Below are positions 2,067 to 56,368 of a DNA stretch of 64,000 nt, piece after piece. Under the pieces are notes generated by a model that worked only from the letters and a program-made list of their open reading frames with translations, did no database searches and was not told where the DNA came from. The position numbers were made by a program, and so were the translations under genes. Every line of letters starts with the position of its first letter. Position 1 is the stretch's first letter. Source of the stretch: Mytilus galloprovincialis (taxonomy: Eukaryota; Mollusca; Bivalvia; Mytilida; Mytilidae); assembly GCF_965363235.1 (NCBI RefSeq), contig NC_134841.1:62021078-62085077 (forward strand), read 5' to 3'.

Positions 2067-2138
2067 CTCATTGAATAATAATGCAATGAAAGACATCCGT
2101 AATGGAACCTTTGACAACTTACCTCGACTACGTCGGCT
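2067..2138 (+). CDS. LRR exon 1 (type A)
   Basis: 72-nt exon between tttcag and gtaggt. It starts with the last base of a split codon and ends with two bases of the next, so it can be added or lost without a frame change. It reads SLNNNAMKDIRNGTFDNL and fits the LxxNxxxxIxxGxFxxLxxLxxL pattern. It is nearly the same as the exon at 9926 and the introns around the two are also similar. Confidence 0.8.
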
Positions 2139-8100: not shown

Positions 8101-11100
8101 GTTTACAAATGTGTGGCGTGACCCGGCCAACCAACCAAGATGGCCGCCATGGCTAAAAATAGAACGTTGGAATAAAATGTAGATTTTGGCTTATAACTCT
8201 AAATCCACAGCATTTAGAGCAAATCTGACATGGGGTAAAAAATATCTATTAGGTCAAGATCTATCTACCCTGAAATATTCAGACATATCGAACAACCAGT
8301 TGTTGGGTTGCTGCCCCTGAATTACAAATTTTAAGGAAATTTTGCAGTTTTTGCATACTATCTTGAATATTATTATAGATAGAGATAAACTGTAAACAGC
8401 AATAATGTTCAGCAAAGTAAGATCTACAAATAAGTCAACATGACCAAAATTGTCAGTTAACCTATTAAGGAGTCATTGCCCTTTATAGTCATTTTTTAAC
8501 CATTTTTCTAAAATTTTTGTATTCTTTTAATAAATCTTCTCCTCTGAAACTACTGGCCCAAATTTAACCAAACTTGGCCACAATTATCATTTAGATATTT
8601 AGTTTTAAAAATGTGTGGCGTGACCCTGCCAACACACCAAGATGGCCGCCATGGCTAAACATAGTACATAGAGGCGACAGTAGATTTTGGCTTATATTTC
8701 TGAAACCAAAGCATTTAGAGCAAATCTGAAAGTGGATAATTTGTTTATCAGGTCAAGATCTATCTGCCCTGAAATTTTCAGACAAAACAGACAACCTGCT
8801 GTTGGGTTGCTGCCCAAGAATTAGTAATTTTAAGGAAATTTTGCAGTTTTTGGTTATTATCTTGAATATTATAATAGATAGAGATAAACTGTAAACAGCA
8901 ATGATGTTCAGCAAAGTAAGATCTACAAATAAGTCAAATGACCAAATTGTCAGTTTACCCCTTAAGGAGTTATTGCCCTTTATAGTAATTTTTTAACAAT
9001 TTTCTTAAATTTTGGTAAATTTTGGTAAATTTTTAGAATATATTTTCCACTGTAATTACTGGGCCAAGTTCATTATAGATAAAGATAATTGTAGCAAGAA
9101 AAATGTCCAGTAAAGTAAGATCTACATGATCACCAAAACACAATTTTGTCATGAATTTATCTGTGTCCATTGTTTAATATGCACATAGACCAAGGTGAGC
9201 GACACAGGCTCTTGAGAGCCTCTAGTTCTTTATGTATGTTAATGCATGGTATGTACGAAATCTGACCATGAATATCATAATTTGGGGCCAGTTGAAAAAA
9301 GATACCCATTTAGACTCGCATTTTGACTCTATGCTACTTCTATTTTTTTGTATACAATACTTGATAACGTAAGTATGAAAGGTGTAACAGTCTTCCATTC
9401 AAAACAAAAACATTAGACATGTGATTTAATGTTTGTTTCATTGTAACACGTGACTTTTCTCCTTTGAATAACTCTGACTATAACAGTTGTTTTTGGTGTT
9501 TTTTTATAACAGGAGTTATTTGCAGAGTCTAAACTGTCATTGTTTCTTAACCGATCTTTGTGTGTGCGGTTTTATTATTTATTATTTTCAATTATAAAGT
9601 TGAATGTATTTTCAGTAAAGTGATATCATTTTTATCCTGGTTTCTATCTACGCTTTTTTATAATTATTTAACCTTTTTCATTATTTTAAAATGTACATAC
9701 ATGATATACATGAAGCGCACACCTTGAACTTGAATGGCTACCTGTATACAAAATACACCAGATGAGGGAAAATTAATAAAATCTTTATATTTTAGAGATT
9801 CCGTACTACAAATGGGAATACGTTATTATCGTTGATAGTTATGCTATGATGACACTATTGTTTAAAACAAATAGCTTCATGAAAACTAGTACGTGTGATT
9901 TATTAATTTTTTTTTTATTTTTTAGCTCATTGAATAATAATTCAATTAACGATATCAGTATGGGAACCTTTGACAACTTGCCTCGACTAGGTTTGCTGTA
10001 GGTACAATTATTCTGCACGCATACCAAGCATACAATAATGAACGAGGGTGATCGAAATCCTGGTAGCATATGATCTTTTGATGGCCTGGTTTTGCTTAGA
10101 TATCAGTACTTTATTAATTTGCTATATATTGTCGAACAATCTCGCTTGCTGATGTTCTATAGCTGGGACGTATTTTGTGCTCTTTTGATGGCATGTTGAT
10201 TTTAATTTAACATTATTATGTTACTTTTGGATTAAAGTTTCGTTAATTGAACCACTGATAAAACTTAATTTTCAATATGCACATTGGTTGTATGAATCTA
10301 ACCTCGATACCATGTAAAACTGTTTAAAAATGAAACGCAATGTGTAATCGTTCTTAAACGATTTTTTTAAACTGTTTTTTAGTATATTTAAATTCATAAA
10401 AACGCCTATAGACAACACGATTAAACAGCAGAAAGCGATAAACATACAGAGGCCAGTACAATCAAAATGACCATTAAATACCTGCTAGGACAACAAAAAA
10501 ACAAAATTGCCTGACCCACTACATATTTTCCTGTAAGAAAAATAACCGATATGTAAATTTCGACTAAAAAAGCTGCAAAGCAACTGCGCGAGTAAACCAA
10601 ATGTGATTTTGCATAGTAAATTGTTTCTTGCAGTATCAATCTACATTAATGTCATTTTGATCAGTAGTTTTAACTGAAATAAAATTGAGAAAGGAAATGG
10701 GGAATGTGTCAAAGCGACAACAACCCGACCATAGAGCAGACAACATGACTTTTATTACTTTTTAGTGTTTGATTTTCTTGCTGTCTTGTCTTTAATGTCC
10801 ACCACAAAGTTGAGATATTGCTAACAAAAGAGAATGTTTTTTTTTATATTTCGTATTAATTTTATTTATATTTTTGTGATAGTCCTTCTCAATGTAGCTT
10901 TATTGTAGATTATGAGCACTTGTGAATTACGATAAACAGTCAGATAATTGGGCTTTTGATAATCGATATATTTGCAATGTTTTATTTTTTAATTCAACAA
11001 AATGTTCTACAGAAAGAAGAACATCATTTTAAGAACATATTATTTTGAAGTAAACCACTCCGTCATCAAGGCTAGTGTTTAGTATTTTTGGTATTATATT

Positions 11101-14100
11101 TTCCGAAATAAGCCATGCAATAAATAAATCATCATTGAATTCGGCAATGAAATAAGTAGAAACTTTTCTACTACAAATCGGTTTTAAGCAAAATTATATC
11201 AGGTACGGCCATACATGTAACCAATCGAAGTGGATTTAAGTAAGTACAAGAAGATAATGTGCCATTGCCAATGAGGAAAATTCACAGGATAAAAAAATTA
11301 AAAAGATATTTAAACAACACTATGGGTCACAGTACGGTGTTTTTTACAACAATCATTAGTTATCTAAAGTCCATGAATATAAACATAAGATTAATCGAAC
11401 CAAACCAAAAATTGTTTGATATCTGTTATTTAAAAAGGGCGTCAAAACAACGAAATAGAATAGGTCCCTGGCTTAAAACAGGGCCTCGGTGACCGAGTAG
11501 TTTACGTAGTCGAACTACTGTATCACTAGCGTATTAAACTGAGGTTGTGACTTCGAATCCCGCACGTGGTAGGTGTATTCGTCTCCAATCTTAATTGACT
11601 GAGATTATTACTTTTCCTACCGATGGTCGATGTTTCTCCCTGTGCATTCCAGCTTCATCTGCCAATAAAAACTGACCTCCATAAAATAGCACAAGAGAGT
11701 TATAAGTTGTGTTAATCAATGGAACAGGCACATGTACTGTGTTTATGTTTGTTTGTAATATCAATACGTAATTCTAATGCAATTTGGATGTAACAATTTT
11801 TTTCATTGGCTAAAAGTTGCCGTCAAATCCACAGTTGACCAGGCGTAACTAAGGAGGGACCCGCCATTTTGAATTGATGCATCAACAAATGTTCGATTAC
11901 TACTATATAATCGAAAATAAAACAACACCTACCTCGAATTCGCCGTTTTAATGTAATTCTATCCGAATTTGAAGCGTACAGGTAACGTAATAACCTCCAG
12001 TTTGTAAGTTTTCATTTGTATGACGTCACGTTTAGCCATGACGTCTTTGTGCCAAAATCATTCATGAAGTTTCGCGGATTTTTTTTTATTTGACAAATCT
12101 AGAAATTTTTTCAAGTTTTATCGTATTTTTTCTTTTGGTAATGCATTAGAATCGGAATAACAGTACTGTAGTTGAAGAGTTTCACCGTCAATTTTGATTT
12201 GACGGTCGCAAATCTCCGTTTTACTGTCTCCGCTACGCTTCGCCAGTAAAACTGCATTTGCGACCGTCAAATCTACAATTGACGGTGGCAACTCTTCAAC
12301 TACAGTACTGTTATTCCTTAATTAGACACGCTGTGCAATATTTAAATAAAACATGAATTATTAACATGGTAACCTCTATTTGACTTATTTTATATTTTAT
12401 AGGTATCTGCGTAGCAATTCGTTGACAGAAATAAGGAATGGTATCTTCGACAATTTGAAAGCACTTTACTGGCTGTATGTATTTTTTACAAAATATTGTA
12501 AACACGTTAGAGTTACTTTTATATCAAACATGATTGCATATTGACAATTATTTCCATTGCTGAAAGATAATTAAATAATGTTTCGCTATTCTAGTTTATC
12601 TGGTCCTTAGGGCAAGTTTAAGCTATTACTATTACTTGACGTCTGCAGTCTGTCGCCTTCGTCGTCAGTCGTCTTCGTTGTCAGTTGTCAAACACCTTTT
12701 ATATTAGTTTTTTCGTCGACACTAATGATCCAAATATAACCAAATTTGGCTTCAATTTCATTTAAGTATTTTGTATAAGAAAAGTGCCAGTTAATCCTGT
12801 CGGTAAAAAAAAACCAAAATGGCCGACTTGGTTAGAAAAAGGAACATAGTGTAAATAAGTTGTGTCTTATATCTTGAAACTTTCATAGATAAAGAAAATC
12901 TGAAAGCAGCAACAATTTTAAGAATACTCCGCGATCGATTTACTGTTCGTTTACATAAAAACTGTCAGATGACATCTGATATGAGTTATTTTCCTTAATT
13001 CACGAATTTTACTTCATTTTCATTGTGGCCAATTCTCTTCAAAACTTAGACAATATATAATACCGCAGTCACACTAGGCCACGATCGCACTATGATCTGC
13101 GAAAAATTTAAAATGTTTAAGATCGTAGTGCGATCGTGTAGATAGTAATACGATCGTTTAGAGAGGTCTTCAAGATCGTGATAAGCGTGGCCAACTTTGA
13201 ACATTTTCAAAACAATCGTGTTGCGGTCGTGGCGAAATCTGGTCGTAGTAGAAGCGTAGTGTGAGCGCAGTAAGGTTGTGGTAAGCTCGCAAAGGTCGCT
13301 GTATCCTCGTAGCGAGAGCGTAGAAAAAGCATGATTTTATTCGAAGAGACTGCACTACAATTTCACTGCGACGTTACTACGCTGTTCAAGATCATATAAA
13401 AAGGAAGATTTGGTTTGATTGCCAATGAGACAACTCTCCATAAGAGACACAGAAATTAACAACTAATGGTCACAGTACGGCCTTCAACAATGAGCAAAAC
13501 CCATATCGCATAGTCAACTATAAAAGGCCCCGAAATGACAACGTAAAACAACTTATTGTCGTTTTCACATGAAATATATAAAAGTTCTCCAGCTTTTGTT
13601 TTTGTCCGTATGTAATTTGGACCTTTTGTCTTTTTCTCAAACGGCTCAACCATGCTTGACACATCTGTCGCATCCCTGCTATCGTTCACTAAAACATCTT
13701 CATTAGAGCTTGATGGACCAGCAATATGTTGTGAATCAGGTTGGATTGGTCTGTCCGACATCTCAGGATTCGTTGAAATACTAAGGTTTTTCTACCTCAG
13801 GAATAGATTACCTTAGCTGTATTTGGCAAAACGTTTAGAAATTTTCGGTCATTAATGCTCTTCAACTTCGTACTTTATTTGGCCCTTTAAACATTTTTGG
13901 TTCGAGCGTCACTGATGAGTCTTTTGTAGACGAAACGCGCGTCTGACGTAAATAAAAAATTTAAATCCTGGTATCTATGATGATTTCATTTACTATCATA
14001 GCTCCGCTCCCTCTGTCTATTTATCTACTTAATCGCAGTAGAAGCGTGGTTAGATCGTGTTGTAAACTCGTAGTACGGTCGTAGTGAGAAAGTGGTAAGC

Positions 14101-17100
14101 GTTGTAAGCTCATGGTTATCGTAAAAAAAGCGTTGCGAGTACATGGTATAATCGTAACGGGATAGTTATAGAAGCGTCATGAGGACATAGTATCATCGTG
14201 AAATCAACGAAAGTTAACATTTTCATGACGCTCATAGCACGACCTCACTACGATCTTAATGTATTTAATATCATGGTGATCGTGGTGTGCGATCGTGGTC
14301 TAATGTGACTGGGGCGTTACACAATAAAGTTTTGAAAGTCCTTTTTTTGTCACCACAATCTTGAAACTTATTAACTTATAAAAAAAAAGATAAATCCTCA
14401 TTCTTATAAAAGATCACCTCCATGGAAAAGAGGTTATCTTTATATTAGATATTGAATACTTATAATAGGTATAAATACATCAAGATAGCGCTCATTTAAT
14501 TTTCGAAGGGATGCCTTCAACTTTCTTATTATGAATTTTTTATTGAACAACATTTTTGAAAGCAGCAGTTCTCTCGATTACAGAATCAAAGATTTGTTTG
14601 CCTTCTCAAACAAGATATAAACACGTTTGCTAATATTTTTTATGAAACAAAGTTGAATTCCTTTTTCATTATGTCCCTATGTTTAGAATTGGCATTGGTG
14701 CGTAGATGTCAAAGAAAGTATGATCGTAGGTCCTTATTTATTTAAGAATTAAATAGTGAAAATCTAGATTTGAATATGATGATACTTAACAAAAAAATGT
14801 TCGTGTTTGTAATTTTTTTTTGCATAGTTTAGTTTTGCCCAATTTCATATGTTTTCAGATTAATAGTAGTTATGAATTCTTTCTATTTTTTCAGAGATCT
14901 AAGCGATAACAAGATATCTCATATAGACAATGAAGCTTTTTTTCGTTCCTCTTCACTTTTTTATATGTAAGTACATTCTATAACTTGTTCATATCACTAT
15001 ACATTATACATATACATCTGATATTTTGTCAATATAAATATAAGAATAAGGGATGATTTTTATGCCCCACCTACGATAGTAGAGGGGCATTATGTTTTCT
15101 GGTCTGTGCTTCCGTTCGTGCGTTCGTTCGTTCGTCCGTCCGTCCGTCCGTCCGTCCGTCCGTCCGTCCGTTCGTTCGTCTGTGCGTCCGTTCAGGTTAA
15201 AGTTTTTGGTCAAGGTAGCTTTTGATGAAGCTGAAGTCCAATCAACTTCAAACTTAATACACTTGTTGCTTATGATATGATCTTTCTAATTTTAAAGCTA
15301 AATTAGACTTTTGATCCCGATTTCACGGTCCACTTAACATAGAAAATGAAAGTTGGAGTTTCAGGTTAAAGTTTTTGGTCAAGGTAGTTTTTGGTCAAGG
15401 TAGTTTTTGATGAAATTGAAGTCCAATCATCTTGAAACTTAGTACATATGTTCCCTATAGTATAATCTTTCTTATTTTAATGCCAAATTAGATTATTACC
15501 CAATTTTTACAGTCCATAGAACATGGAAAAGGATAGTGCGAGTGGGGCATCCGTGTACTTTGGACACATTCTTGTTGTTTAAAAAATGGACAACAACGAT
15601 TCAAGTTAATAACAGAAAACCAACTGCAATAATGCTAGATAGAAACAAAAACAACACTTTGATTGGGTTGCTGTCTTGAGAAAAATTGATGATACTACTA
15701 CATGATTATGCATGTATTTAATACAGTATTAAACTAATGTGCTAGTTTTTTTCTTCATTAAACTATATAATTGCAAATTACTCACAAATTTAACTTCACT
15801 AACTTGTTTTTTTTTTTAGTTATCTTCGTAACAACTCATTGACTGGAATAAGAAATGGAATGTTCGATAATTTGACTAGACTTTACTTGCTGTATGTATT
15901 GTATAGACATTTTTTTCCTAAATATTATAAAACATGGAAAAATAATTATTTAAGTAAGAATCAATTGCAATTTGACAACTTTTCCCAATTATATGAGAGA
16001 TCACTGCAACGATGTTATCCTCATCTTCGCTAGCCAAGGGTTACGATCCACTCCCGCTCTCTTCACCCTTGGCGGATTGAGATAAAATTTCGGAGACACA
16101 AGGTAAGGATTTTTATTGGTTGCAGTAGAAACTCGCTGCATCCAATCAAAAAGCGCCTATAAAATGATCACGTGTAGATGTAGAAAGTGTTTGTAAACAA
16201 TTGCCACGTGTTTATTGCGCAAAAAGTCTTTACATCACTTAACATACGACTATATTTAGTGACAACTGGAATGTTTTAATCAACTAATAGAAGTTCCTGT
16301 GTATGTTTCATGCACAAATGCATGAATGTTGACGTATATTTTCGTTTCCGGCTTTACCAAGTGTGTAGAATTTAGACGCTACAGTGTTTTTACCTCCAAA
16401 TTGAAGAGTTCAAGTGCTACCATTGGTCAAGAATAATGTATTCGAAATGGGTTGACTTTAATCTTCCGATAGATGGCGCAACATTGATATCACAAATCTT
16501 AGCTCAATCCGCCAAGGGTGAAGAGAGCGGGAGTGGATCGTAACCCTTGGCTAGCGAAGATGTGTTATCCTATATTTTGTAATGATTAGAGTCTCAAGTG
16601 AGTTTTGCTATGCACTACCAAATATATCGTCTATTTTTATCATCTCATTATGCATCGGATTTCTGTTTTTTAATAATTTCTTAAGTGTATTATGTATTAC
16701 CCATGCTCTTGTCAGTTTAGAAATTATTTTCCCAATATCACGATATTTAGTTTGAATGAGGCAATATTCTTTTAACTGACAAACCAGATTTATATGATGT
16801 CCAACTATCTTAAATTAAAATATATCGGTATCTTATGAAGATGGTTAAAACAAATAACAAGAATTTAGGGAGTTTACTCAAATTAAATATGCACAAGGTT
16901 TCATTCTCAGCAGAGACACTTGTGAGTGTAACAATAAAAAAAAAGCATTCAGCGATCTTTGCATTGGTTTATGATATATAAAAAAAGATGATGTGGTATG
17001 ATTGCCAATGAGAAAATTCTCCACAGGAGACCTTATGACACAGAAATTAACAGCTATAGGCTACCATACGGCCTTCAACAATGAACAGAACTAATACCTC

Positions 17101-20100
17101 ATAGTCAGCTATAAAAGACCTCGAAATCACAAATGTAAAACCATTCAAACAAAAAAGCTAACGGCCTAATTAATTAACGTTTGTTTAGTTAGAAACAATC
17201 TGTTTGTAAGATCTAAGCTGATTTTGTATTTTGATTTAGTGAGTTTCTCTTATAGAATTTTAGTTCCTTTTTCTTTCAGGTAAAATTTGAACGTCAAATC
17301 AGGGTTGTAAATATTGTACATATTGCATTTTTAATTAAATTTAATCAACCTGCCATACAGTAGAACCATTTTTTTATTGACTGGTAAACAAGTTAGGCTC
17401 TTATCCAACTTTGTGTTTTATGTCCATTGAATATTATTTTCTTATAAATTAGCATTTGAATGAGTAATAATTGGAAACACATCAATTATAAGAGGGGGGA
17501 AAAAACAACAAAAACATCATATTGGCGATAATTTCGCAATAAAATTTTACATAAACCGTTATAAAAGGACAATTGATTCTCAGACGGGAATGTGATTCTT
17601 TTTAAGTGACAAGGGATAGTTTCAGCCAATCAAGGACATGTACTCCCTAAACTATCAATATTTATACACTGTGGAATAAAGATGAGATGATACATAGATG
17701 ATAACCGGTTCTTGTAAAATGATTTGGGTCAAGTAATGGTCCTTATTATTAACAGAATCAAAACACAATACAACAAGGTGTTGATATTAAGTGGAAAAGT
17801 GTCACACTCACATTAATTACTTCATGATTATAACAAGTAAATTAATAAAAAAAATAAAAAATTTCAATTTTTGAAATATTTTAATATAATTCTTTAACAT
17901 TTTTATATTTACTGTTAAATGTTCAACATTTCGATATAGGTGATCAGTTTTATAATGGATGTTACGATAAATATTTACTTTTTTCAGCGATGTAAGTGGC
18001 AACATGATTTCTGATATTAACGATGGAGCTTTTATTCATTCCTCTTCACTTTCGAGTTTGTAAGTATATTATGGTATTAATCCATATCACCCAAAAATTC
18101 ATATTACACAAATAGAGACGATATTTTGTCTTAAAATATAGATATGATATCCAAGAGTGTGTATCAATCCATGAACTGTAACATGAAATCATTAAAAAAA
18201 AATCACAAAATGAAGGAAAATTTTCCTTATGAAATCACCGTATCAAATTGGTTTTATCGTTACAACTGGTCTGATAATTATTTTTAACAACAGAAGTCCA
18301 CCGATGTTCAAATTTCGCAAATACATTGATATTATACAATTCAAGGTACCAAACCAAAACAGCAGATGAACGAGCGAGACCGTGCTTTGACGGTGTGATA
18401 AGACAAGCCATTTCAAATTAATATTAATTTAAGTGCCAGTCTGCCTAAGAATCAGGCAGTGGTGAAAACATAACCAAAAAACCCCACTCAATTTGACATT
18501 GATTTTAGTTCATAATATGTAGTTATGCACAAAAATAACATTCATTTCTGTTTTCTGCTCTGGTAATAGAAGATAAAATTTGGTTGAAATGCACTAGAAA
18601 TTAACGAATAAGGGGAGATAATTCTGTAATTTGCTATCATTCTAACCAATTTTCTAACCAAGTTATTTGATATTACCAGACACACACAAACGAAAGACTA
18701 ACACTTTTTAACTCAGGATGATGGTTAGTATTAAATAGCATGATTAGCTCGGTGAGTTTTTTCTTATCATGTTTTAATTTTTACCTAAATTGCCTGATTC
18801 TTACAAAGACTGGCACTTAAATCTCGGTCCTACTTTAGGAAATGGCTGATCTTTGTTTTGTACTCTTTGGAAGAAAAAAAATTATATATAAAAAAAATAT
18901 TCAAAAACCTTTCCCACATCAAATCGATGGAAGTGGTTTCGGTGTTATACCCAGTTTTCTGTGTCGATGATATGAAGGGAGTTATTCGTTAAAAAATCTT
19001 ATTGAAATTTAATTCATTATTTAGTATATCAGCAATTCAATGCACATCGTATCAGTTTCTGAATGTTGTGAATTTTTTCTCCACACATACATGGAAACAT
19101 AAATTGGATATTCAATAGATACTCTTTAATTAAACAAAGCATGATTTTTTTCAGGAATATAGGATTCAATCCAATAACAGAACTGGATGAAAACGCCTTT
19201 ATTGGCTTACCTAATCTCAGAACACTGTAAGTGCTATCAATTTGTATTAAAATTTGGGTAAAACCATAAAAGGATTTAACGCGTTTTGCCTATATCGTAG
19301 AATAATATAAAATACAAATAGCAAAAGTATTTAACTAGACAATATGCTGAAATGCAAGGCATTACAAGTTTTCCATTCATAAAAAATGTCATCATGTTGT
19401 TTCACATTATGATGAAATTTCAGGTTTAGATTTCAATCATTACAAATGCATCAATGCTTTCGAATTATCTATTTCCAGCCCCAAAAAAAATGGGTATCGA
19501 ACTTCGAACTGTCACTTTTAATCTAGTACGTTAATCTTACGTGTCCGTTTATCACAGAACAGGGCTTACATTCATATTATATCAGCATGGTCCCGTCCTG
19601 AATATGCATTTGATTTGCTAGTCCTAGATAGATCAACTGCCTTCTGCAGGAAAATTTTTAACCAATTAAGATCGGGGTCTGACGGAATGACATCGAGAGG
19701 GATTCGAAATCCCAGCATCAGCGCTGCTGTGATAGTGATCACTATAGATAAATAAGGGTATATGTTTATGAAGAAAAAAACACATCAATGATAACATATT
19801 ATTACTTTGTATGCCATCACGAATTGGTTGACCTTTATAAAAAAAAAAAAACCTGTTCCAAGGAATTGTTTTTACCAAACTCTCCTTTTCCAGAATGTGA
19901 CCTATCGAATTAGATATATCACCCGGGTTTGTACTAACCATGACTAGTGTCTGAGCAGAAAGTTGACGAACCAGGGTTATGTTAAAGAAAGTCTAGTCCT
20001 CTTTCGGAAAAAAAATTTCATCGGAAGATATAACGACCTTGTAAATAAATATTCCGTATCAACTTCACAAATAATACATGATGCTCTTGAAGTATCGATT

Positions 20101-29100: not shown

Positions 29101-32100
29101 TAATGATCCTCACATCACCACTTTTGATGGAAAGACCTATCATTACCATGAAGTTGGAGAATTTGTCATGTACAGAAATGACAAAGGTCCATATTGGGTA
29201 AGAATCATATCTGAAATTAGAAACGAAATACTCTTATGTGATATCATATTAGACTGAATAGTTAAATAAAGTTAAAGGGACTAAAGAAAACAATACAACT
29301 TCTGTTATTCATTCATCCGTACTACAACAATAAATTACTTTTGCTTGCAATGACACATTCTAAAAATTATTAAACAGTTTAGTACGTTGTGTGAGGTATT
29401 GAGTATTGATGTTTGAAGATTGAAAAAAAACTGAAATTATAACTATAAGCCCTTGATTTAAGAATGCCTTGTTACGGTTTTACTTAAACGATATGTTAAA
29501 GTCTCTACTTCCTATCACATTTATTTTTCTTCCACCTGTTATTCATTCGCTGCTAATCAATAGCTGATATCCGTATTCTAAACTGTCCAATAAACAATAA
29601 CCACTTTGGACGTCAAACTTCCTTGCAATATTATTGGTTTGCTTTGTAAACTGCATAAAAAGACCAACATTTGTTTTGAATATTACAAAGAAGATATCAT
29701 CTCTTTGCAATTCACAATAAAACAAAATACTGTTTTTATATAATATATGTAAAATCATGTTAAAGAAAATTGCACTGGTCCATTCAGTGTGACTTGATAT
29801 TTCTTATCAATCATTCACAGATATATCATTACAGTGGGATTGCAACATATGTCATTACAAAATGAAAGTTCTAAACAATGTGCGTCCAAAAACATATTAC
29901 CCCAATAAGGTGTGCAATGACAGATTATATATTCTGTCCCCCTTCGTATATATACATGTATTATTTAAATGTTTGTTGGATTAACTGATATCATTGCTCA
30001 AGCGAGAAAATTAATCTCGTTGAGATGATCAACGATAATCTATAAGTATCAATTATAAAAGGTTTGTGATTGTTTTGATATAATTTATCGAAATTATTTA
30101 AAAGTTATGAAGCTGGAAGATTTCAAATAAATTTAACCAGATTTGTGGTAGGTAAAAGAAAGCATGATTTTGCTTTACATTTACTGTTAATAAAGAAGTT
30201 TCTTTCTTATGATAGTTACAAAAATGTATTTCTATTGTTTCTACTTATGTAGAACTTAAGGTAGCACTACAGTCTAACAATGATTTTTTGATCATATTTT
30301 TTTTATCACATAATTTTGAAATAAGTATTATTCTGCACAGTTTGTAAAAATCCCAAAGTTATTGTCATATCACATCAGGGAGTAAATTGATAATGAATTT
30401 ATGTAAATAAAAGCACATGGTAATTAATCTAAATATATAGGCATTTGGGAGGGGCTTATATGTCAATCATCTGTTGATACCAGTGTCCAGCTGTTAATCC
30501 CTGACCACAAGATAAATATTGTAGTCTTATCATCATGTCATTGTTTTGCAACACAAATTATTTATATAACATGGAAGTGAACAAAGAAAAAGAAAAAAAA
30601 AACTAAAGGGAAAAAATCTACCAAAAAAGAAAAAAAGTACTATGGAAAAGAGTGGGGAAGTATTTTTGAAAGCCTCTGACTGCCTGTTTAAATTTCTTCT
30701 CTTAGATCTTCTTCATCTAAATACAGTTTTATGAATTTTAACTAATTTTCAGTTGATGTGTATTTTTTCAGTCCCATTTAATTAAATGTATTTTCAAGAA
30801 AAGGGTGGTCTTGATCTTTTTATGAACATGTTTTTTTATGCACACTTTTAATGTTTAGCTAATTTCAGACATAGTTTATTTCTTTTTTAAAATTCAAATG
30901 AAAATTATTCTTTATACATTTATTAAATGCAGCTGGTCAAGAATGTTATTCTCTTATCTGAGACTGTCTTGAAAGAGGCGGAGCTTTGTCGATATTTAAT
31001 TACTTGATCACAGATGTTGGTCATATCTGTGACGTCAAACTCCCGCCAAATGCCAAGTTAGTGTTGGACAGTTCACATATAATGCAAAATTTACAGCATT
31101 AGAGCATCAAAGACACAAAGTGTGTGGTTATATTGATATAGTAATGGTATCAGAACACTCCTGGTGTGTTCCCAGTGGAACGTTTGTATTTATATTGACT
31201 TTATAGGGGTTCTAAGGGGAAAATTCAGTTTTTAGGTCATTTCTCAGAACAATTTTTCATGAGAATTGTAAGGAAAAAATGAAAATAGAAACTTTATAGG
31301 TGCCCCCTTTGGCTTGACTTTGATATATATGATTAAAGAGTGTATTTTCTACAATACCGTGTCCCAGTTTTTGGATAATTTTTTCTAAATGAATTTATAG
31401 GTCTCCAAAGATGAAAGGTGAAATGAGGTTTGGCACCCAGCAGTTAAATCAATATATCTTCTTACTGGAGGCATATATCAAAAATCTGAGACACGGTTTT
31501 GGAGATTGTATATGGTTGATTACAGGGATGAAAACAAATTTTTACTACCATTTGACATGAAAGTGCCATTTTCATCCAAGTTGGAAGACCACTTTTTTGA
31601 CAATTAATAAGCTATATTTTGAGATAAATCAAACCAAAAATAAATTTATATATAAATTAAGAAAGAGTTATATTTCAGCTTTAAAATGAGTTAAAGATTT
31701 TAAAAATCCATTGAGTAGTTTTGGAGAAATTAATCTTTAAAGACTGTTGATTGGAGTCAGAAAATTCTGACTGTAGTGCTACCTTAATTAGTCAATCTGT
31801 ATTCAAACCATATGAGTTTTAAATTAATCTGGTTTAAATAGTGTCATTGTTAAGAATAGCGTCTACAGATTTGAATCAAACGGTTTTTAATGACTATCTC
31901 AAGCTTGAAATATTCCTTATTTAATAGCAAAACTTCAATTTCAAATCAAAGGTTTTTGTTCTTTACTTTAAGGTGCATGCATTGTTCACCAATTGCAATG
32001 ACGGATTTCCAGGAGCCGCATGCCATTGTGGTGTAGCAATTAGAAGCCGAAATTCCCTTTTCGTTTTACGAACCTGTCAAACAATTTCAAGAAGTAAGAG

Positions 32101-35100
32101 ATATAGCCTGAAAACGCCTCTTGTTTATATAAAACAATGTGATCCTAGTGATATGTTCATTCAACCGTTGTCAATTACTAAATATAAGGTATGTATAAAG
32201 AAAATATTTATAATGTAGCATGCATAATATAAAAAAAATATAATATCTAGCATTTTCGTGAAATATAATTTCATGCAAGGTAAATACGCAAGTATTATAT
32301 GAACCACAATATGTGTAAACCATAGTGCTCTTGTGGTTTCATTCAATGTTTCATTTATTCAATATTATGATAAAGCAATACTTGCATCTAAAAGTGTCTT
32401 TCATTTGTCGATAAGTGAACATATAAACTAGACTAGGGTAGGAATTATATATAATGAGAGATGATTTGTTCATTTTAATCTTTTCTTATTATGTGGAAAA
32501 TTTTGAATTGATTGCCTAACTTCAAGAAAAATGTTACAAACGCGCGAAATTCATACCGCGTGGGGTTTGTTTTGTTTTTTTTTTTTTTTGTTTTTTTATA
32601 ATTTTGTGTTGGGTTTTTTTTAAATACAATTCTGAAAACAAAGTTGTGATAACTGACAGCAAATTCGAAATATTCAGATTTCAAAATCGATATGCTTTTG
32701 CCTGTGGTTTTTAAAACAATATTCTAAACAATTGTGAACTGGAAAAGGAAATACCTTATTTTTTAACTCTCTCTGATTACTGAGTTTCTACTTATTTATA
32801 ATTGTTTGTTTTATAATCTCAGGTAACGTTGCCAATAGGAACTGAAATAATTATTACATTTCAACGGTTGTTCATTAGCAGTATAATAATTAAACCTTCA
32901 TATCATGACATAAACATGGCGAAAGGACTCTGCGGATTTCCAAGCACAACCAAAGACACAACTGACGATTTCATGCATAGGTATTATGGAGTGGTGCAGA
33001 ATCAACGGACGTTTGCAGATTCATGGAGGTATTTGTATAATCTGAAGAAAAAACGAACCCTACATAGTCGTTTTCTTCTCTATGTGATAACACAATCGGG
33101 GATGTAAAATAATTTACTTTTTTTTCAAATAAACTGACAGAACAACTGAGGGAGACATATATAAGTGTTTCTGTCGTATTTTTTTCACTATCCTTTGTTT
33201 TAAAGCCTTTCTTTTAACATATTATATCATTTCATATGCATATCAAGTAACGTCGTGATATAACCATATTGCGATTTTTTTATTTTTGTTTGGTGTAATA
33301 TTGTTTTTTTGGAGAGATTCGTTTATTTTTTTAGATATCATTAGCTCTTTCTAAACAAAAATATTGTTTTAACATGTATATCTGTAAGTATCAAAGAATA
33401 AATTCACATAAAATGAACAGTCGAAAGTCATATTACAAGTTATGTTATTCATAATAAAAAAGAAAGTAAGAATATAATATATTCAAATTGAATAATTGAA
33501 CGAAATTTGATTATTGATATTGAATACTCGGCAGAAAATAAAAGCATGTGTTAAAAAGCAGTTGAAACTTAGAAGTCAAATGCTTGCCTAAATATATTAC
33601 TTTTCATAACTGTTTCCTCCAGATTCATAAGATAAGAACATATTCGTATGTATGTTATGAGGGATAGCAATAACCAGTATTGTTTACTTTCTTTCAATCG
33701 AAATCTTTTAAATGACCATTACTAATTGTTTCAGAATCAATGACACTATGGTGAATGAACAGCTCTTTTTTCAAATTCCAATTTTTCTAACTGAAAATTT
33801 TAAAGTGACAGAAATCAACCAGACGCCACCCTTGACTTTAGATCATTTCTGTGTGTGTGGAAAAAAGGAAACAAACCCTCTTTCATTAGATGATTTGAAT
33901 ACTGCTCAATGTCAGCTGACATCCACTACAGATTATTGCGTAGAATCAAGTGCAACTATAGACAGCAGATTGCCTACTGAGTCTCTGAACTGTTTAGCCT
34001 CAGGTCGTATAAGGAAACGCTCTGTCAGCTCGAAATCATTTAATCGGCGCAGCATTGAAAGCGATGACGGATTAGAATTTCACCCTTTAACTTACGACGA
34101 TGATGTATACAGCGAAAATCTAACGGTAGGATATTTTGTGATGTTGTGTTTTGAATATTTTTTTTTATGTTAACAGCAATTCTCGAGGCAAATTATAGTA
34201 TATAATATACTAAGAGTCGAAAATATCGCTTTACGAGTTCATATGCAAATCATTGATTTCGGTTATTTGGGTGATTGGTTCTTTTATATGATTTTTGTCG
34301 AGCCTTCGACTTTAGTCGAAAAAGCGAGACATAGCGATCCTACATTCCGTCGTCGTCGTCGTCGTCGGTGGCGTCCACAATTATTCACTCTGTGGTTAAA
34401 GTTTTTGAAATTTTAATAACTTTTTTAAACTATCCTTGAATTGTACGAAACTTTGACAGAAGCTTGTTTATGATCAGGAGATAGTATCCAGAAGTAAATT
34501 TTGTAAAAATAAAATTCCATTTTTTCCGTATTTTACTTATAAATGGACTTAGTTTTTTCTGCGGGGAAACATTACATTCACTCTATGGTTTAAGTTTTTA
34601 AAATTTTAATAACTTTCTTAAACTATCCTGGAAATGTACAAAATTTGGCCAGAAGCTTGTTTATGATCAGGAGATAGTATCCAGAAGTAAATTTTGTAAA
34701 AATAAAATTCCATTTTTTCCGTATTTTACTTATAAATGGACTTAGTTTTTCTGCCAGGAAACATTACATTCACTCTGTGGTTAAAGTTTTTAAAATTTTA
34801 ATAACTTTCTTAAACTATCCTGGAATTGTAAGAAACTTGGCCAGAAGCTTGTTTATGATCAGAAGATAGCATCCAGATGTAAATTTTGTAAAAATAAAAT
34901 TCCATTTTTCCCGTATTTTACTTATAAATGGACTTTGTTTTTCTTCCAGCTAACATTACATACAGTCTGCAGTTAAAGTATTTAAAACATTTTTAAGATT
35001 CTTAAACTAGCCTGGATTTTTACCAAACTTGGACAGAAGCTTCTGACAATCAAAAGATAGTATCGAGAGGAATAATTTTATTGATTTTTTTCATTATTTT

Positions 35101-38100
35101 TGATGAGTGTGTGATAAACAGCAAAAGTAGGCGAGACACTGGGTTCCGCGGAACCCTTACAAATTTTTATAATTCCACTCCGAACAGTTTTGTTTTCAGT
35201 TTCCTTGCTTTTCCAATCAAGGTAAACCGAAAATTGTACTTATAAGATATATGCTTTGATACGAGACGTATTATGCGAAGAACTAGAACTAAGATTATTT
35301 TTTTTCGTGTTGATAGGTACTAAAAGATATATTACTAACATTAACCCCACAACTCTTTTCATTCATCGACATAAAGTCAAATGTAGACCGACCTATCAAA
35401 ATTACTACCTGATCTTTTAACCTTCAAATGTAGAATTACACAAGAAATTCCAGATAAATATCCAGATTGTTACAGTTATCTAAATGAAGATTTATATAAA
35501 AGTACCGAGCTCATACTCAAATTTTAAAAGGGGAAAGTCGAAATAATGAAAAACAATTGCTATATTCCTTGCTATATTCGTGCATTGTCCAAAGAAAATT
35601 GCAAGTAATATTATGTAAATTTTATATATAAGAAAAATTCTGAAATTGATTATAGCAGTTCTTTAAAGTGACTTTCGTCCTATAAAATATATGTGGATCC
35701 AGTTATAGTAAATGGTTAAGTGGCTCGTTTTATATTTAAAGGCTCCAGCTGCTTTCAAAAATAGTTGGACAGAAGAAAATGCTACAAACACGTGCAGGGA
35801 AAGTATACAAAATGCCCTCCCGTCACACATATACAGCGAGTATGTAGAACTATCAGAAGATGAGTTTGTAGAGTCTTGTGTTTTGGATATAATGGTGAGT
35901 CGACAGCAAAGAAAGTTGGAATATGTTTAGTTTTCGATATAAATACTTTGAGATAAAAGGACACACAGATCCATGTCTTCGTTTCCTTGCATCATTTTAT
36001 TCTATTACTTTTTTATTTTGTCTTCATTTTTTATTGTATAACCACTTGCCTTTACTTTATTGTATATCTTTTTGTATAATAATGCATTGTCGTTGGTAGT
36101 GAGTAACTCCTTTGGACGAATTTATATTCAATATTAACATGAACTAAAATATCAGAATTTTCTTATATTGCTTATCGTTCAAGTAGTGGAATTCTAAAAA
36201 ATAGGCGAATCTTGCAATTTGTCAACTGCATCTTCTTTTTTAATTTAATAAACGCGCGTCTGGCGCAAATACAAATTTTCAATTCTGGTATCTTTGATGA
36301 GTTTATTTACATAAATTTTGTTTGCTTCTATTAGTTGTAATTTTTGTCTTACCTTGACGGAGTTGGTGGCGTCGTCAATGTATTTGTTTGGGATTAGTTC
36401 AGTTTAAAGGGATCCACTAGTGGTATATCAATGATATTTAGTATGCAGTGGTATTGGCATTCTCACATCTCATTTTCATGGATATAATTCAGACCCGGGG
36501 CCCGTCAGTCATTGTTTATTGACTTTGAACTTTTGCTTGTTTACATGTATAAGTTTGTAACTAAGTAAGTTTATCGGGAACCCCTGGTGGTAGGTCAATG
36601 ATATTTTGAATTCAGTTCCATAAGTTTTGAAACATCTCATTTACATTGGATTTTTTTGGCCTTGTACCTTCAGGCATGGTTCATTGACTTTGAATATTGT
36701 GTAACACTTGCAAACTAAAGTATTGCTCTTTTAATAGCAACATTTATATTTTACTATCAGAATAACAAAAAATAAGAACAGAGGCGCAGCATTAGTAACT
36801 ACTGTTATTGTAGGAGCATGAACACGTCAATTAAGTGAAAATGAATGGTAATTAAAGAGAAAAAAGAACGACGGGAACAAACAAAAAAGGTCCCTACCCC
36901 AAACGCACGTGTTTTCTCTTACGGAAGAAATTGTAGACCCGATAAATGCGCTTAATATAGGTTCTAGATATACAGCAGATATACCAAGAACAAACAGGAT
37001 GTCAAAGATAAAGAATTTTAGTCAGAAATTCTAGTTCGGAGAACGAGCTATGAGTTCCTATGAAGAAATTTAGAATTTATTCAAAAATACATATATGGTC
37101 TATGTACTCATATGGGCCGTTTTGTTGATAACCAAACGAGTATATACTCATATGATCCTACCATACGTGTATACGAAGCAACGTCCAAAACTATTTCGTA
37201 CCTTCTCTTATATGCATCGATTGGATAAACCAAACAACGTGAAACGCCTTTGTAGCTGCTTATAACGATAAGTGTAGATACACTTCCATTACACGTACAC
37301 AAACTCCTAGATTTTTCAATATTTTTGAAATATCTGCCATAAAAGTAGTAGAATGATCGCGTATGGAAATATCAGTCAATATAAAGTCAGGTTTATGACA
37401 ATTAATCACCATTTGTTTCAATAATCAGCGTTTGAAGAACTTTCCTTTGGCAGGCTTATGTTTTTAATATCTAACATGCTATACCATCTACTTTCCTTTT
37501 GACGCTTAGTTTATTTGTTATTCTTGTTCTTGAACTGTCCTTCGTCGACAAGTTCCCATGGAAAATAGTCTTTAAACGGGTTCGTTTGCTGTCTATGCCC
37601 TTATTGAACCATCACAAATATTTCTATTTATTTTCATCTCTCGTTTTGGTCCCAAATAAAGGTTCTCCATAACTGCATATTTTAGTTCAACCTGAAATCA
37701 ACTGTTGCCGTCAACATATTGAGTGTTTTTAATTTCTACAACAGGTATATACATTAAAACTCACATATCAACTTGAACGATGTATTTCACTATTGTAGGC
37801 TACTGGAGATACAACCTACATTGTAGATACCATTGATGCCATGGCAACAATCATACTCGTGGAGCTTTCACGGAATGAATATATACATATCAAAAACATG
37901 ACCGAAGGAAACCAAACGGTACTGGATTATATTACTGGTTTCCTTTGTCCTAATAACTGTAATGACAACGGTAATTGTGTGTCAGGTTAGTATTTGGAAG
38001 ATTGTTATATGTTTACTAAATCACTACATTTATAAAAGACTTGCTGTAGACACTGTTGTACTAAAACCAATTATAATATTGTAAGCACTGTATTTTTACA

Positions 38101-41100
38101 TTAATTGACGTAATTGTGTATGATACAATATTTTGAACTTTTAATCAACTTTACATTACTTGTCATTGGCTTTGAATTGATCGAACTAGCTCTGAGTAAC
38201 TGCGATTATTCTCTGATATGTACTCAGTGTCTTTTTTGTTGTCGAATGTAGAAATATCCTTCTACGTCCGGTCTGTGTTTGTATCAGAAGTCTTTCTGCT
38301 TTGTATCGATCTAAATACTAGTAGTGCCTTCTTGTGTTGTACAGTTATATCAGTGTCCCAGGTTAAGTAGAAGGTTTGGCGCCAACAAATTAGTTTAACC
38401 CCGCCAAATTCTGTATATGCCTGTCCCAAATCAGGAGCCTATTATTCAGGGGTTGTCGTTTTTGCTGTATATCATATTTGGTTTCCGTTCATTGTTTGTA
38501 CGCAAATCCGGGTGTTAGTTTTCTTGTTTAAATTTTGTTACTTGTCATTCCCGCGACTTTTATAGCTGACTGTGCGGTATGAATTTTGCTCATTGTTGAA
38601 GGCCGTTCGGTACCTATAATTGTTAACTTCTTTGTCATTTAGTCTCTAGTGGAGAGTTGTCTGGAATTCATACGACACCTTCTTATTTTTATATTTAAGA
38701 TTCATTGAAAGCAAATGACAGTATGGGACGGAAATGATCTTTGTGATTTCAAAGGAAAGACATTTCTTACTGACAACGATAACCACTCAGAATATCTTCG
38801 ACATAAGAAAAAAATTCTTTGAGATGGTCTTATTCAAACATATCACATTGCTAATATATAATGGGCTTTTTTATGCTGTATGTTTAAGTTAAATTAAATC
38901 TTGGCTTTTTGTGTTGTTTGAGTTGAACAACAATTACTTTCCTGGACTTTCCTGTCATAACAGCCACATCTAGATATTTTGTTTTTGGCATACATCCAGC
39001 ATTTTGATATTAACTAAGTTGATAAGATTTATCGTATCCAAAGTTTGAGATGCAGATATTTAATATCCATGATTCCCAACTATACAATCAGAAGATGACT
39101 TGCATTGACGAACATGAAAATCTTTAAAAGAGAGGTGGAAGATATTAAAGGTATATATACAAACTTATTAGTGAAAGAAATGCTGACTTCGTTATGTCTA
39201 CAAAACAGATAATAGTAAACTAAACACTGAGCAGCACTAACCTCACATACAAATAGGGAATGATATTCTATGCTCTGGAAGGTAAAGATATCTTGCTCGA
39301 CAAGAGGTACCCGTAGTGTTAAAATCAGTAAACCACTGTTGCTCCTTATCATGCACTTTATCTGAAGATTTTTCCCCATTTCTAAACTCATGTTATTATA
39401 CCTTTAAGGTGTTTGTGCTTGTTATAAAGGATACATGGGTGATAGCTGTGCTGAACAGACATCTTCGCCACCGTCTGACACAAGTTTACCGAATGATGGG
39501 CTGTGTTCTATAAGCACAAAGTCATGTATAACAACCAATGTGTATGGCAATTTTCAGTCAACGACTGTGTGGTATAAAAAGAGAAGTTTCCAGGTGATTA
39601 ATTTAAAGGATAGATAAATCTTTAGGGGGAAAACATATCTAAATAGCATTTCAATTAATTTCTTATTGGTTCATAAAGAGTATGAATTTCTAGATGATTA
39701 AATCTTTAAAAATGGAACATTATTGATTTTGTTCTCATGTTTTAACAAAAGATTTTTGAAGCTAGAAATACCCTTTTTTTACAAAATTGATTAAAATATT
39801 CACAATTTGAAAGTTTTAGAATGAATATATGTATGAGTTAGTTCGTCGTACAAGCGAGTGTACAATGCATACATAATACTTCAAGCATATATTTATAATA
39901 TTACTTACTTACTTACTTAGTGGTCCACCTTTTGACATCCGCCTTTCTTAAGTTCTTTCATATTGTCCACATTACACAAATTCTAAAACAAAAATCTATT
40001 CATTTATTTCAATTATTTTTTTAATCGAAAATAACAACATCATTGATTTGTATTATTTTGGTTATTTTATTCAAATCCCAAATAAACTTAAATATCAATT
40101 ACATTTTTTAAATATTAATCAGGAATGTTCCTTCATTAGTGATCATCGGAATATCGTTTTCAATAAATGTTTAAATAGCAGGTTTAATCAACTCAATATC
40201 TATATAATAATGGCATCAGCTGTCGAAGCCATCATAGGATATGAAATGTATAGTCAAAACCGGAGGGAAACTTGTTATTTTGTATGAAGGCAGGTATAAT
40301 AATTCATTCAATAGTAAACCGAATAAAGTTAACGGGCTATTTTGAAATAAATAAAGCAGAAACATGTAGCCTCTGACCATAAGGGTCGAAAAGCCTTACA
40401 TATAAAAAGGGAAGATGTGGTGTGATTACCAATGAGACAACTCTCCACAAGAGACCAACATAACTCAGAAATTAACAAATATAGGTCACCGTAAGGCCTA
40501 CAACAATGAGCAAAGCCCATACCGCATAGTCACCTATAAAAGGCCCCGAAATGACAATGTAAAACAATTCAAACGAGAAAACTCACGGCCTAGTTTATGT
40601 AAAAATTGAAAGAAAAAAAATATGAAACATAAAAACAAACTGAATTACAAGTTCCTGACTTGGGACAGGCACATACATACAGAATGTAGCGGGGTTAAAC
40701 ATGTTAGTGTGATCCGAACCTTCCCCCTAACCTGGGACAGTACACCACAAGAACGAACAATAAAAATCAGTTGAAAAAGTCTAAACTCATCAGATGGACA
40801 AAAATACAAGTGGACGGGGACGGGTGGAGTTCTTATATTTAATTGTGTAAAATGGGTGAAAACTTCAAAACAACAAAGTTTAATTAGGAAATTAACCATC
40901 AAGAACATTTCGCAAATTGATTCCAGACTGACAATTCTAGGAATAACCAAAACATAAACCTTCTGGTATAGTATTTAAATATAAGATTATGATTTAAACG
41001 AAATCACATTGATAACATAATATGTAAAAAAAAAATGACGTTGAAAGTTTGCATATTGTCATGTTACAAATTGTTACGGAAATGTCCAAATGGCTATAAG

Positions 41101-44100
41101 TTATACATAAATGTAAGTTTACTTATTTTTGAAACTTCATTGGGAGAACAAAACTTGGTCAAATAGAATTTAAGCTGGATAAGCGAATTTTTCAGGCGGT
41201 ATAACCATATAATATGTATTCAGTGAAGTGATTAAGAGAGACACAAAGATTACGTTTTTTCACTGCTTTTTTCATTTAAACGTTATATATAAAGTGTGTT
41301 GATGTGTATCTACATTCAGATTACCGAAAATGGTACAGTCTACACATCTGGAAATGAAACGGCCACTGCAGAATATCGGCATTTGTTCATGGTAACTGTA
41401 CCGCTTAAGATATCAAGACGTAAAAGATCTACCGAGTCGATGCATTCACCAGAAGGATATGAAATTAGCTTGTCAAATGACGGCAGTAATTTTGGAGAAT
41501 CTTTCAACATGATTGTGTATGACGAAAATTGTTTCACTTGTAACTCAACATCAGTAACTTGTGTTGCCTTGGTATGTTATATTTATACTTACATTATAAG
41601 TTATTCATTCACAGAGAAGTTGTACTAGTCAGCATTCACTGATTGTTTTAGTAATAGGTTTGTCTTTCATAAAAAAAACATTTATTATACGCGGTTTGGG
41701 TGTATTTATTGATTGCATCAAATGGTTTATTCATGTATATGGTTTTGATGTTATATTTGTTATTCTCGTGGGATTTTGTCTGTTGCTTGGTCCGTTTCTG
41801 TGTGTGTTACATTGCAGTGTTGTGTCGTTGTTCTCCTCTTATATTTAATGCGTTTCCCTCAGTTTTAGTTTGTTACCCCGATTTTGTTTTTTGTCCATGG
41901 ATTTATGAGTTTGAACATCGGTATACTACTGTTGCCTTTATTTATTCTAGATAGAAACTTAAATAAGTAATTTCAATATTAAATACGTTAAAACAACATA
42001 TCAAAACAATCTTACAAATGATAAAACATTTTACATAATACCAGAGTATGTTTAAGTAAGAAACAAATCATTTTAATTATAATTTAATTTATGACTCCTA
42101 ACCCTAAAGATTGAGAGTGTTATCCCGAGTGCTTCAATGCTCAATACATGCTCCGCATGCGATATCCGCCTTGTCCGTCGTATCCAAGGTAGACAACATC
42201 TTTTACATGTCAGATCCTGTAACAGGTGAAATATTTCATTAGAGATGCCGTACTTTTATTGTATAATTAAAAACTGATGCAATTTGTATATGTCATGCTC
42301 ATTGTACATGACGCAGAAGAAATTATTTACAAATACAATACAGGTTAATTAAGTGAATAAAGTGTAAATTGAGAGCCATTCACATTTGTAAGATGGTATC
42401 ACAATATTCGATTTGAATACTAAATATGTTGCAATGAATCATTTGATTTCGAGGGGGAAATGTATTTCTGGAACCGTTGTTTTTTTTCTATTTTCGTCAA
42501 AACCAATATTTTCATTGGTAAAAGAAAACACGTTTTTCGTCAATAGTTAGTTTTGTTATATTAAAAACCATCCATATAGACCTCAAGAGATGTATTTTTG
42601 TTGAACATAGAAAATTGTTGTTCCAATGAAATAAATATTCTACGAATGGAATAGCGCAATTTTCTTTTAATGTTGTTCCATTAAGAGTTTCATTAAATAG
42701 TCTTTAGTGCAATTTTTCGTATTAACTGTATGCCAAAAAATGTCCGAAACAATTTCACAGAATAATCCATTTCCAATTTCAGGAAAGATGTAAACAAAGC
42801 AATAAAGACGGTAAGCTTTGATATTTAGATTACTCTTTTAAAGACACCGATTGCATTTTCAAACTTATTCAATCTATTCAAAATAAAGTAGTGATACTTA
42901 AGATGTCCTAATAAAACAATGAATTATGTGTTTGGTAACAAGAACCAAAATAAAAGCACAAAATATCTACACAGATAGTGCGTTTTTGTGCAGCTGCCTT
43001 TAACATCACAACGGGAAATCTTTTATCCTCTACGTAGTCCGCGTCACTGTTAATATAAATCTTTAGCTCCTTAAAAACAGCTTGACGGAATTCGACCAAA
43101 CTAATAGATATAGATTCGTATTCAGGACACGAATTTATCAACCTGCTTTTTAATGTTTGATCTGATAGATTTCTTAATATATAATTTGAACACGACTGGC
43201 GACACACAAAGTCATTCGAAGAATCAAACATTTCGTAATTATTTGCGTGCTGACAAAAAATATTGTGCGACTTTTGTATTTTCTGTTGATTAGCCAAAAT
43301 ATTTTCCCAAAGAACTAGGCTGTTGCTTAAATCTTACATATATTAATTCATGTCGGTTTAATGCATTATATATATAGTCATAATGTGCCATCAGTTTTGT
43401 TCAGTCAGAAGTCCAGTCAACGCAAAGACTCAAATTGGCATTTTTTTTTTATTTCTCATCCAAACATGAGGTATATTTAGGAATATGAGCAAATATTGGT
43501 TGAATCGAAGATAGAAAGAGGTGTTGATATTTTTTTTCTTAATTTCTTTCAGATAATAATAAAATCTACGTAACAATAGGTGTAGCTCTTGGAGTTGTAC
43601 TTGCAATTATACTGATTGTTTTGGTTGTTATTATCTACAGAGTAAAACATACAAAATCACTGTGAGTATTAATGAGATGTCAATGGTTATGACTGTATAC
43701 GTAAATTTTTAGAAATTAGAATATGCAACATTCCAACAGCATCTACAAATAGAGTATACATCTTTGGATTGATACGATATGTAAGAGCTTTAGAACTATG
43801 TAAATAAATATTAAGGACATATGAAACAGGTTGCATCCCACGGTGCTTTTTTACGAAAATTTGCATACAAACTATTTTTCAACTAGTCAATTCAAATTTG
43901 TAATAAAAAATATACCTTAATGGTATCGAAATTTTAAACATTTATTAAAATGGTATCGAAACTTTAAACATTTACTAAAAAGATATATAAAAAAACAGGA
44001 CTTTTGTACAAACATTTAGAAAATCTTCTTTACAAAAGTATGCTCTAAGTTTGTTTAACAATTCTTTAAAATGATTGTTTTTATCAAAGTATCACGATTT

Positions 44101-55958: not shown

Positions 55959-56368
55959 TTACATTGTTGCTATTAGGAACCCTGTAAATGATGCCAGTCT
56001 ATTACCATGGAGTCGTTCTGTCTGTTTATTGCTGTTTGTTCTACGGGTCACTTCAATGATATCACCTTTCTTTAGTTCTAAAATCGCTTCCATGTCAGCA
56101 GTATTATAATTTTGTGCTGCAGTACTACGAGCGACTTCAATCCCGTTTTTGTTCATTTGCAGAAAAACACTATGATAACTTTGCGACATCCCAGTACTTC
56201 CGAAACGATACAATCCATCAAAAGGCGCAATGAATTTTCCTGTTTTCGGATTATAACCTTTACCAATGTTAGTGTATACCTGATCAAAAACTACTGTTTG
56301 ACTAAACTCAAGGTCGAGATCTCTGGTTGAGATTGCGTAGAAAGCGATGATTCCTTGCTTAGTCCCAT
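55959..56368 (-). CDS. C1q gene 1, exon 3 (C1q domain)
   Basis: 410 nt after ttctctttag, ending with TAA. It holds the whole C1q domain, as is common in this family, and is exactly as long as the gene 2 exon. Confidence 0.9.

Follow-up and report, generated by a model that had tools for sequence, protein, structure and literature searches.

A predicted membrane protein gene of Mytilus galloprovincialis that probably joins a leucine-rich repeat array to a VWDE-family body

The window analysed here is a stretch of 64,000 nucleotides from Mytilus galloprovincialis, located at C4:62021078-62085077 in a searched genome of 1.385 Gb and 331 contigs. Positions are those of the window, and negative positions lie upstream of it. 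An independent rebuild of the gene at 2067-45416 on the plus strand yielded 25 exons; all 25 begin after an AG acceptor, and all 24 internal exon ends are followed by a GT donor (Table 1). A single open frame of 1242 codons, the first of them incomplete, crosses the exons without an internal stop, and the terminal stop codon ends at 45416. Nine leucine-rich repeat (LRR) exons in one phase (eight of 72 nt and one of 75 nt) are followed by the cap exon 23519-23718 and by 15 VWDE-type exons at 25205-45416. The join of 23718 to 25205 is in phase, with phase 1 on both sides, a match expected in a third of random joins. An earlier note on this DNA had described 25 exons in one reading frame, the ends 2067 and 45416 and the same join, all of which agree with the rebuild. 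Its end of the gene was borne out, while 2067 does not hold as the start: in-phase LRR exons continue upstream.

Table 1. Exons and other parts of the predicted gene, in window positions
Feature	Position	Strand	Remark
LRR exon, 72 nt	2067..2138	+	
LRR exon, 72 nt	9926..9997	+	in an older copy of the region around 2067-2138 (550 bases, 73% DNA identity)
LRR exon, 72 nt	12403..12474	+	
LRR exon, 72 nt	14895..14966	+	
LRR exon, 72 nt	15820..15891	+	
LRR exon, 72 nt	17988..18059	+	
LRR exon, 72 nt	19155..19226	+	
LRR exon, 72 nt	21410..21481	+	
LRR exon, 75 nt	22323..22397	+	
Last half repeat and LRR C-terminal cap (CxC...C...C)	23519..23718	+	phase-1 donor
1486-base intron separating the LRR cap from the VWDE body	23719..25204	+	partly shared with an intron at L042, a paralogue
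First VWDE-family exon	25205..25461	+	phase-1 acceptor, like relatives
VWDE-body exon	26299..26379	+	
VWDE-body exon, 127 codons	28264..28644	+	aligned with 16 paralogues, 40-56% identity
VWD domain start (NDPHITTFDG)	29048..29197	+	
VWD domain middle	31973..32188	+	
VWD domain end (GLCGF)	32823..33028	+	
Post-VWD exon, basic stretch RIRKR	33735..34125	+	
VWDE-body exon	35742..35894	+	
VWDE-body exon, EGF-like module start	37799..37985	+	
EGF-like module end and part after it	39409..39593	+	
Body exon, predicted donor	40123..40281	+	no convincing match in nearest paralogue
Juxtamembrane exon, furin-type motif RRKR/S	41320..41571	+	no match in nearest paralogue
Linker exon, 28 nt	42783..42810	+	predicted from phase
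Transmembrane helix exon	43553..43661	+	
Short cytoplasmic tail and stop codon	45296..45416	+	

Pfam reported LRR_8 (7.8e-42) and VWD (PF00094, 1.7e-10) over the cut-off in the joined protein, for which the query was a 1194-aa earlier model without LRR exons 14895 and 17988. The nine window repeats with the cap exon gave LRR_8 at 2.3e-70, and the LRR part matched PDB chains down to 4.2e-50. The VWDE body had weak PDB matches only, the best being the Fc fragment of IgG binding protein at 0.001. The Pfam LRRCT model was not reported for cap exon 23519-23718, which we assigned by its CxC...C...C pattern and by an LRRC15 chain whose alignment extends as far as the CDC/W stretch. Since every EGF-type model scored under its cut-off (EGF_TEN 28.1 of 65 bits, EGF_Teneurin 20.9 of 24.3 and EGF_2 18.2 of 22.1), the term "one EGF-like module" stands for weak matches and a cysteine pattern. 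RGM_C was under its cut-off as well (21.5 of 27). The transmembrane helix is clear (19-mer mean hydropathy 3.46), and the cytoplasmic tail of fewer than 50 residues contains no TIR, kinase or any other Pfam match over cut-off. About 65-70 residues before the membrane lies an RRKR furin-type motif, one among three R-x-K/R-R matches. The domain series of the earlier note thus stands for the LRRs, VWD and membrane helix. Its suggested search with LRR_8, LRRCT, VWD and EGF returned the first and third over cut-off, leaving the cap as a cysteine pattern with an LRRC15 alignment and the EGF-like module as matches below cut-off.

The LRR array extends beyond the window. A filter for 72-nt LRR exons, applied to the plus strand of the window and the preceding 60 kb, matched 23 times, 21 times at full score and twice at lower scores that resemble noise. 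An LRR-exon HMM run on both strands of the same 124 kb with a threshold of >8 bits found 18 plus-strand matches at 31 bits or more, two at 10-13 bits, and one on the minus strand (11.0 bits). Nine further 72-nt LRR exons are located at -15030 to -30, where they share the phase of the window exons and are in frame with them. Eight of these nine are tandem copies of three exon types, present in three, two and three copies. The duplicated blocks measure 1.2-1.5 kb including introns and are 91.7-93.9% identical (L010/L009, window -15412 to -2852), an identity that makes the tandem duplication probably recent. Such near-identical repeat modules suggest that the repeat number may vary between individuals. 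Four more LRR exons occur at -47861 to -41379, beyond a 26-kb gap that has none. Simple patterns applied to the 60 kb upstream revealed neither a start for this part of the protein nor a signal peptide or N-terminal LRR cap. Some or all of the LRR exons upstream of the window could belong to a separate second LRR gene, as the gap isolating the farthest four and the lack of a detected start would allow. However, the nine near exons continue the frame of the window exons and agree with them in strand, length, phase and consensus. We regard a second LRR gene as unlikely overall, though the farthest four exons may belong to one, and it would be compatible with an LRR array joined to the VWDE body.

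To place the body, we searched the genome with its first three exons, which gave 67 matches (76 candidates scored). The 31 matches that cover the first body exon, the 25205 locus included, were taken as the family set, which puts at least 31 N-terminal exons of this type in the genome. Exon 28264-28644 is 42.6-55.5% identical to its counterparts at 16 other loci. Relatives carry three exons ahead of the first body exon: one for D8C, one for the D10C fold's second half, and a short linker exon with the pattern CP-G-SSETG-PGC. When the D8C and D10C-half exons of relatives were joined, Pfam reported D8C_UMOD over cut-off in five of the five tried. A decoy exon was found on the same strand within 25 kb upstream of 25 of the 31 loci in the genome search (D8C in 24, D10C second half in 24, both in 23); from 138 D8C and 117 D10C genome matches, these tallies kept those on chromosomes or stretches holding family exons. 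The 10 kb upstream of 11 mostly distant paralogues contained D8C in eight, the D10C second half clearly in nine, the linker in ten and any of the three in ten. Decoy counts are partly a matter of construction because the loci counted also supplied most of the sequences for the HMMs; finds outside the building set were D8C at L036, the D10C half at L037 and L043, and the linker at L037 and L041.

Conversely, neither D8C, the D10C second half nor the linker gave anything below E 1 in the window or the 60 kb upstream, intron 23719-25204 included. The decoy module was not found at the 25205 locus, so we describe its body as belonging to the VWDE family and not as a typical VWDE protein. Decoy absence is not unique to it, since six of the 31 loci have no detected decoy exon: this locus, its nearest paralogue and four others. 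At one of the six, L041, a local scan picked up a linker exon together with a weak remnant of D10C. At L035 (C4:72577450-72587449), the 10 kb preceding the first body exon of a VWDE paralogue yielded neither decoy nor LRR exons. Elsewhere, C10:68924270-68986746 on the minus strand holds a tandem array of D8C and D10C second-half exons, spaced at about 3010 bases for many copies, which could represent a single giant repeat gene or a large number of genes. A second cluster of decoy exons is present at C10:67178759-67272512.

LRR exons were not detected in the 10 kb upstream of any of the 11 paralogues (HMM, E 1). A loose LRR pattern gave scattered matches in paralogue loci that do not resemble LRRs, and the HMM found none there at E 1 in the loci other than the window, L009-L013, L048 and L049. 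A search of the genome with cap exon 23519-23718 returned only itself at E 0.01, and at E 10 three matches, namely itself and two at E >1. The genome LRRCT search (18 matches), the cap exon and the 75-nt LRR exon, which found itself only, did not reveal a second LRR-VWDE locus. Genome searches with LRR queries were dominated by LRR genes with long open exons among the 150 scored of 2459, 809 and 598 candidates, and were uninformative about the nearest paralogue.

The nearest paralogue, C4:61881209-61881469 on the minus strand, is 58% identical over the first body exon. It groups with the 25205 locus in a tree of this one exon (96/91), where the branch of the window copy is 0.56 long versus 0.28 for its sister. 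About 30 kb upstream of the paralogue, on the same strand, one sequence weakly matches the linker exon (14.5 bits, E 0.019; minus strand of L046 near 620, around C4:61911719). Of the 15 body exons, the first ten have matches in the paralogue; for the last five, membrane helix included, nothing convincing was found in the remaining searchable part of its locus, roughly 1.1 kb. Across 719 codons of these ten exons, pN is 0.273 and pS, which is saturated, is 0.764; the first body exon alone has a pN of 0.273 and a pS of 0.86. These values bear on the reading in which the body is a decaying VWDE copy that has lost its 5' exons and lies behind an LRR gene by chance, any joined transcript being functionless. 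Undetected decoy exons, the longer branch (one exon) and the weak acceptor at 25205 would all fit a decaying copy. However, all 15 body exons retain usable borders and an open frame, and ten have been constrained since the split from the sister, a test that a very recent loss would escape. We consider decay very improbable.

Donor 23718 is the top-scoring donor within 23400-25520. Acceptor 25205 is weak at 1.9 bits (training mean 12.0, lowest 4.9), as are two acceptors outside the training set, 23519 (1.6) and 45296 (0.6). Its phase recurs at the matching AG in 15 of 15 readable relatives when compared by eye, and under a mechanical rule the best-scoring nearby AG has this phase in 13 of 15 (chance 1 in 3); L026, where the exon start is outside the locus, and L046, a chance match at E 0.048, were set aside. 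The earlier note named a start site with a signal peptide directly ahead of the VWDE exons as evidence against a joined gene, and we looked for both. The 23 codons before 25205 form an open, strongly hydrophobic frame, and the nearest paralogue has a similar stretch. This frame contains no ATG, and the only alternative AG acceptor by which it could enter the transcript, 25157, has a score of -13.3 bits. No good independent start emerged between the LRR and VWDE parts: the best 9-residue hydropathy among 31 candidate initiator exons in 23719-25204 was 1.87, and a short ATG exon at 24645-24660 with a fair donor (5.5 bits) could be spliced to 25205.

These observations can also be read as two adjacent genes, one for LRRs that stops after the cap and one for a VWDE protein lacking the decoy, with a separate first exon and a signal peptide encoded just before 25205. 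The hydrophobic stretch, which is the most hydrophobic of 34 exon fronts and has its counterpart in the paralogue, speaks for such an arrangement, as does the ATG exon. Yet open frames of at least 17 codons precede ten of the 34 exon fronts, and three of the 34, that of 25205 among them, also reach a mean hydropathy of 2.0. The missing ATG and the poor score of 25157 weigh against use of the stretch, and the 25205 acceptor has the same phase as those of relatives. If the LRR gene stopped at the cap, it would further need a 3' end of its own, and read-through past donor 23718 gives a short tail with a hydrophobic run of only ten residues. Two separate genes are, in our assessment, improbable.

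We consider it likely that the locus is one gene, in which an LRR array and its cap are joined to a VWDE-family body in a single-pass type-I membrane protein. The best support for this reading is the within-genome comparison: the body needs a phase-1 upstream coding exon, the exons that usually provide it were not found, and a cap exon with a fitting donor stands in their place. The fused, single-pass protein proposed in the earlier note is supported by comparison with its family in the same genome and by constraint on ten body exons out of 15, among them the first, while the splice from cap to body is predicted.

VWDE proteins start with VWD-type regions and carry many EGF modules, and we know of no vertebrate VWDE with LRRs. 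The mussel protein shares with them the body order of N-terminal VWDE modules, VWD and EGF-like region, taking the vertebrate order as we know it. It differs in having an LRR array instead of the decoy module, a transmembrane helix and, where VWDE has several EGF modules, one weak EGF-like stretch below the Pfam cut-offs. A passage of PMC9117669 describes VWDE as a von Willebrand domain with EGF repeats, and the D10C domains of human and mouse VWDE are aligned in a figure of PMC8930769. According to the same paper, the decoy module of human uromodulin and GP2 presents a high-mannose glycan to bacterial FimH. Compared with this uromodulin/GP2 module (D10C), the module of the mussel family members matches D8C_UMOD, and it was not found at the 25205 locus.

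With extracellular LRR proteins such as the acid-labile subunit, LRRC15, LRIG1, Toll-like receptors and lamprey VLRs, the mussel protein has 24-residue repeats and a cap-like CDC...W motif in common. To our knowledge, none of these joins LRRs to a VWD or VWDE body. Toll-like receptors possess a cytoplasmic TIR domain, whereas the short mussel tail has no TIR match. A join of LRRs to a VWDE body in the place of the decoy was not found in the open-licence literature, a scope that lies apart from animal protein databases, and the combination may well be present in annotated bivalve proteomes.

We read the locus as a swap of an LRR array for the decoy module within the VWDE family, both parent kinds being already known. 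Most other family members have a uromodulin-type decoy module (D8C/D10C) ahead of the VWDE body. At this locus the decoy exons may have been lost and the phase-1 acceptor of the family joined to an LRR array whose cap exon has a phase-1 end, perhaps in that order. In the resulting protein, the LRR horseshoe would serve as a ligand-binding head, and the N-terminal modules, VWD and EGF-like module of the body as a stalk and assembly part. Presumably located at the cell surface, it might act in capture, in adhesion or as a co-receptor, and could be shed at the RRKR site near the membrane. Such roles are likelier than direct signalling because the search of the tail detected no known signalling domain, and the surface recognition or adhesion receptor envisaged in the earlier note is a reasonable suggestion of function. 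A more far-reaching version, which we offer tentatively as a doubtful possibility, is that a pathogen-facing head was exchanged, the decoy giving way to an LRR array that grows by tandem exon duplication, so that a new receptor with a variable repeat number arose; the nearest paralogue, likewise with no decoy exon detected, may share the LRR head. If real, the swap of decoy module for LRR array would show exon shuffling exchanging a recognition head while the intron phase stays fixed, in a family of about 30 loci within one genome. It would then provide a testable before-and-after case for the building of new recognition receptors in invertebrates.

The window and its surroundings contain several other features. 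Inside an intron of the gene, a tandem repeat at 34383-35042 has a period of 192, 3.4 copies and 90% matches. Reverse-transcriptase-like ORFs lie at 53418-54267 on the minus strand and about 54.5 kb upstream of the window on the plus strand. Both carry a GIPMGTNCA motif, which we take to be a mark of retroelement reverse transcriptase; the window piece 53421-54011 had no Pfam match at 0.001. Two mutually similar C1q-domain stretches are found on the minus strand at 55962-56432 and 62141-62584 (PF00386, 6.9e-19 and 1.1e-20).
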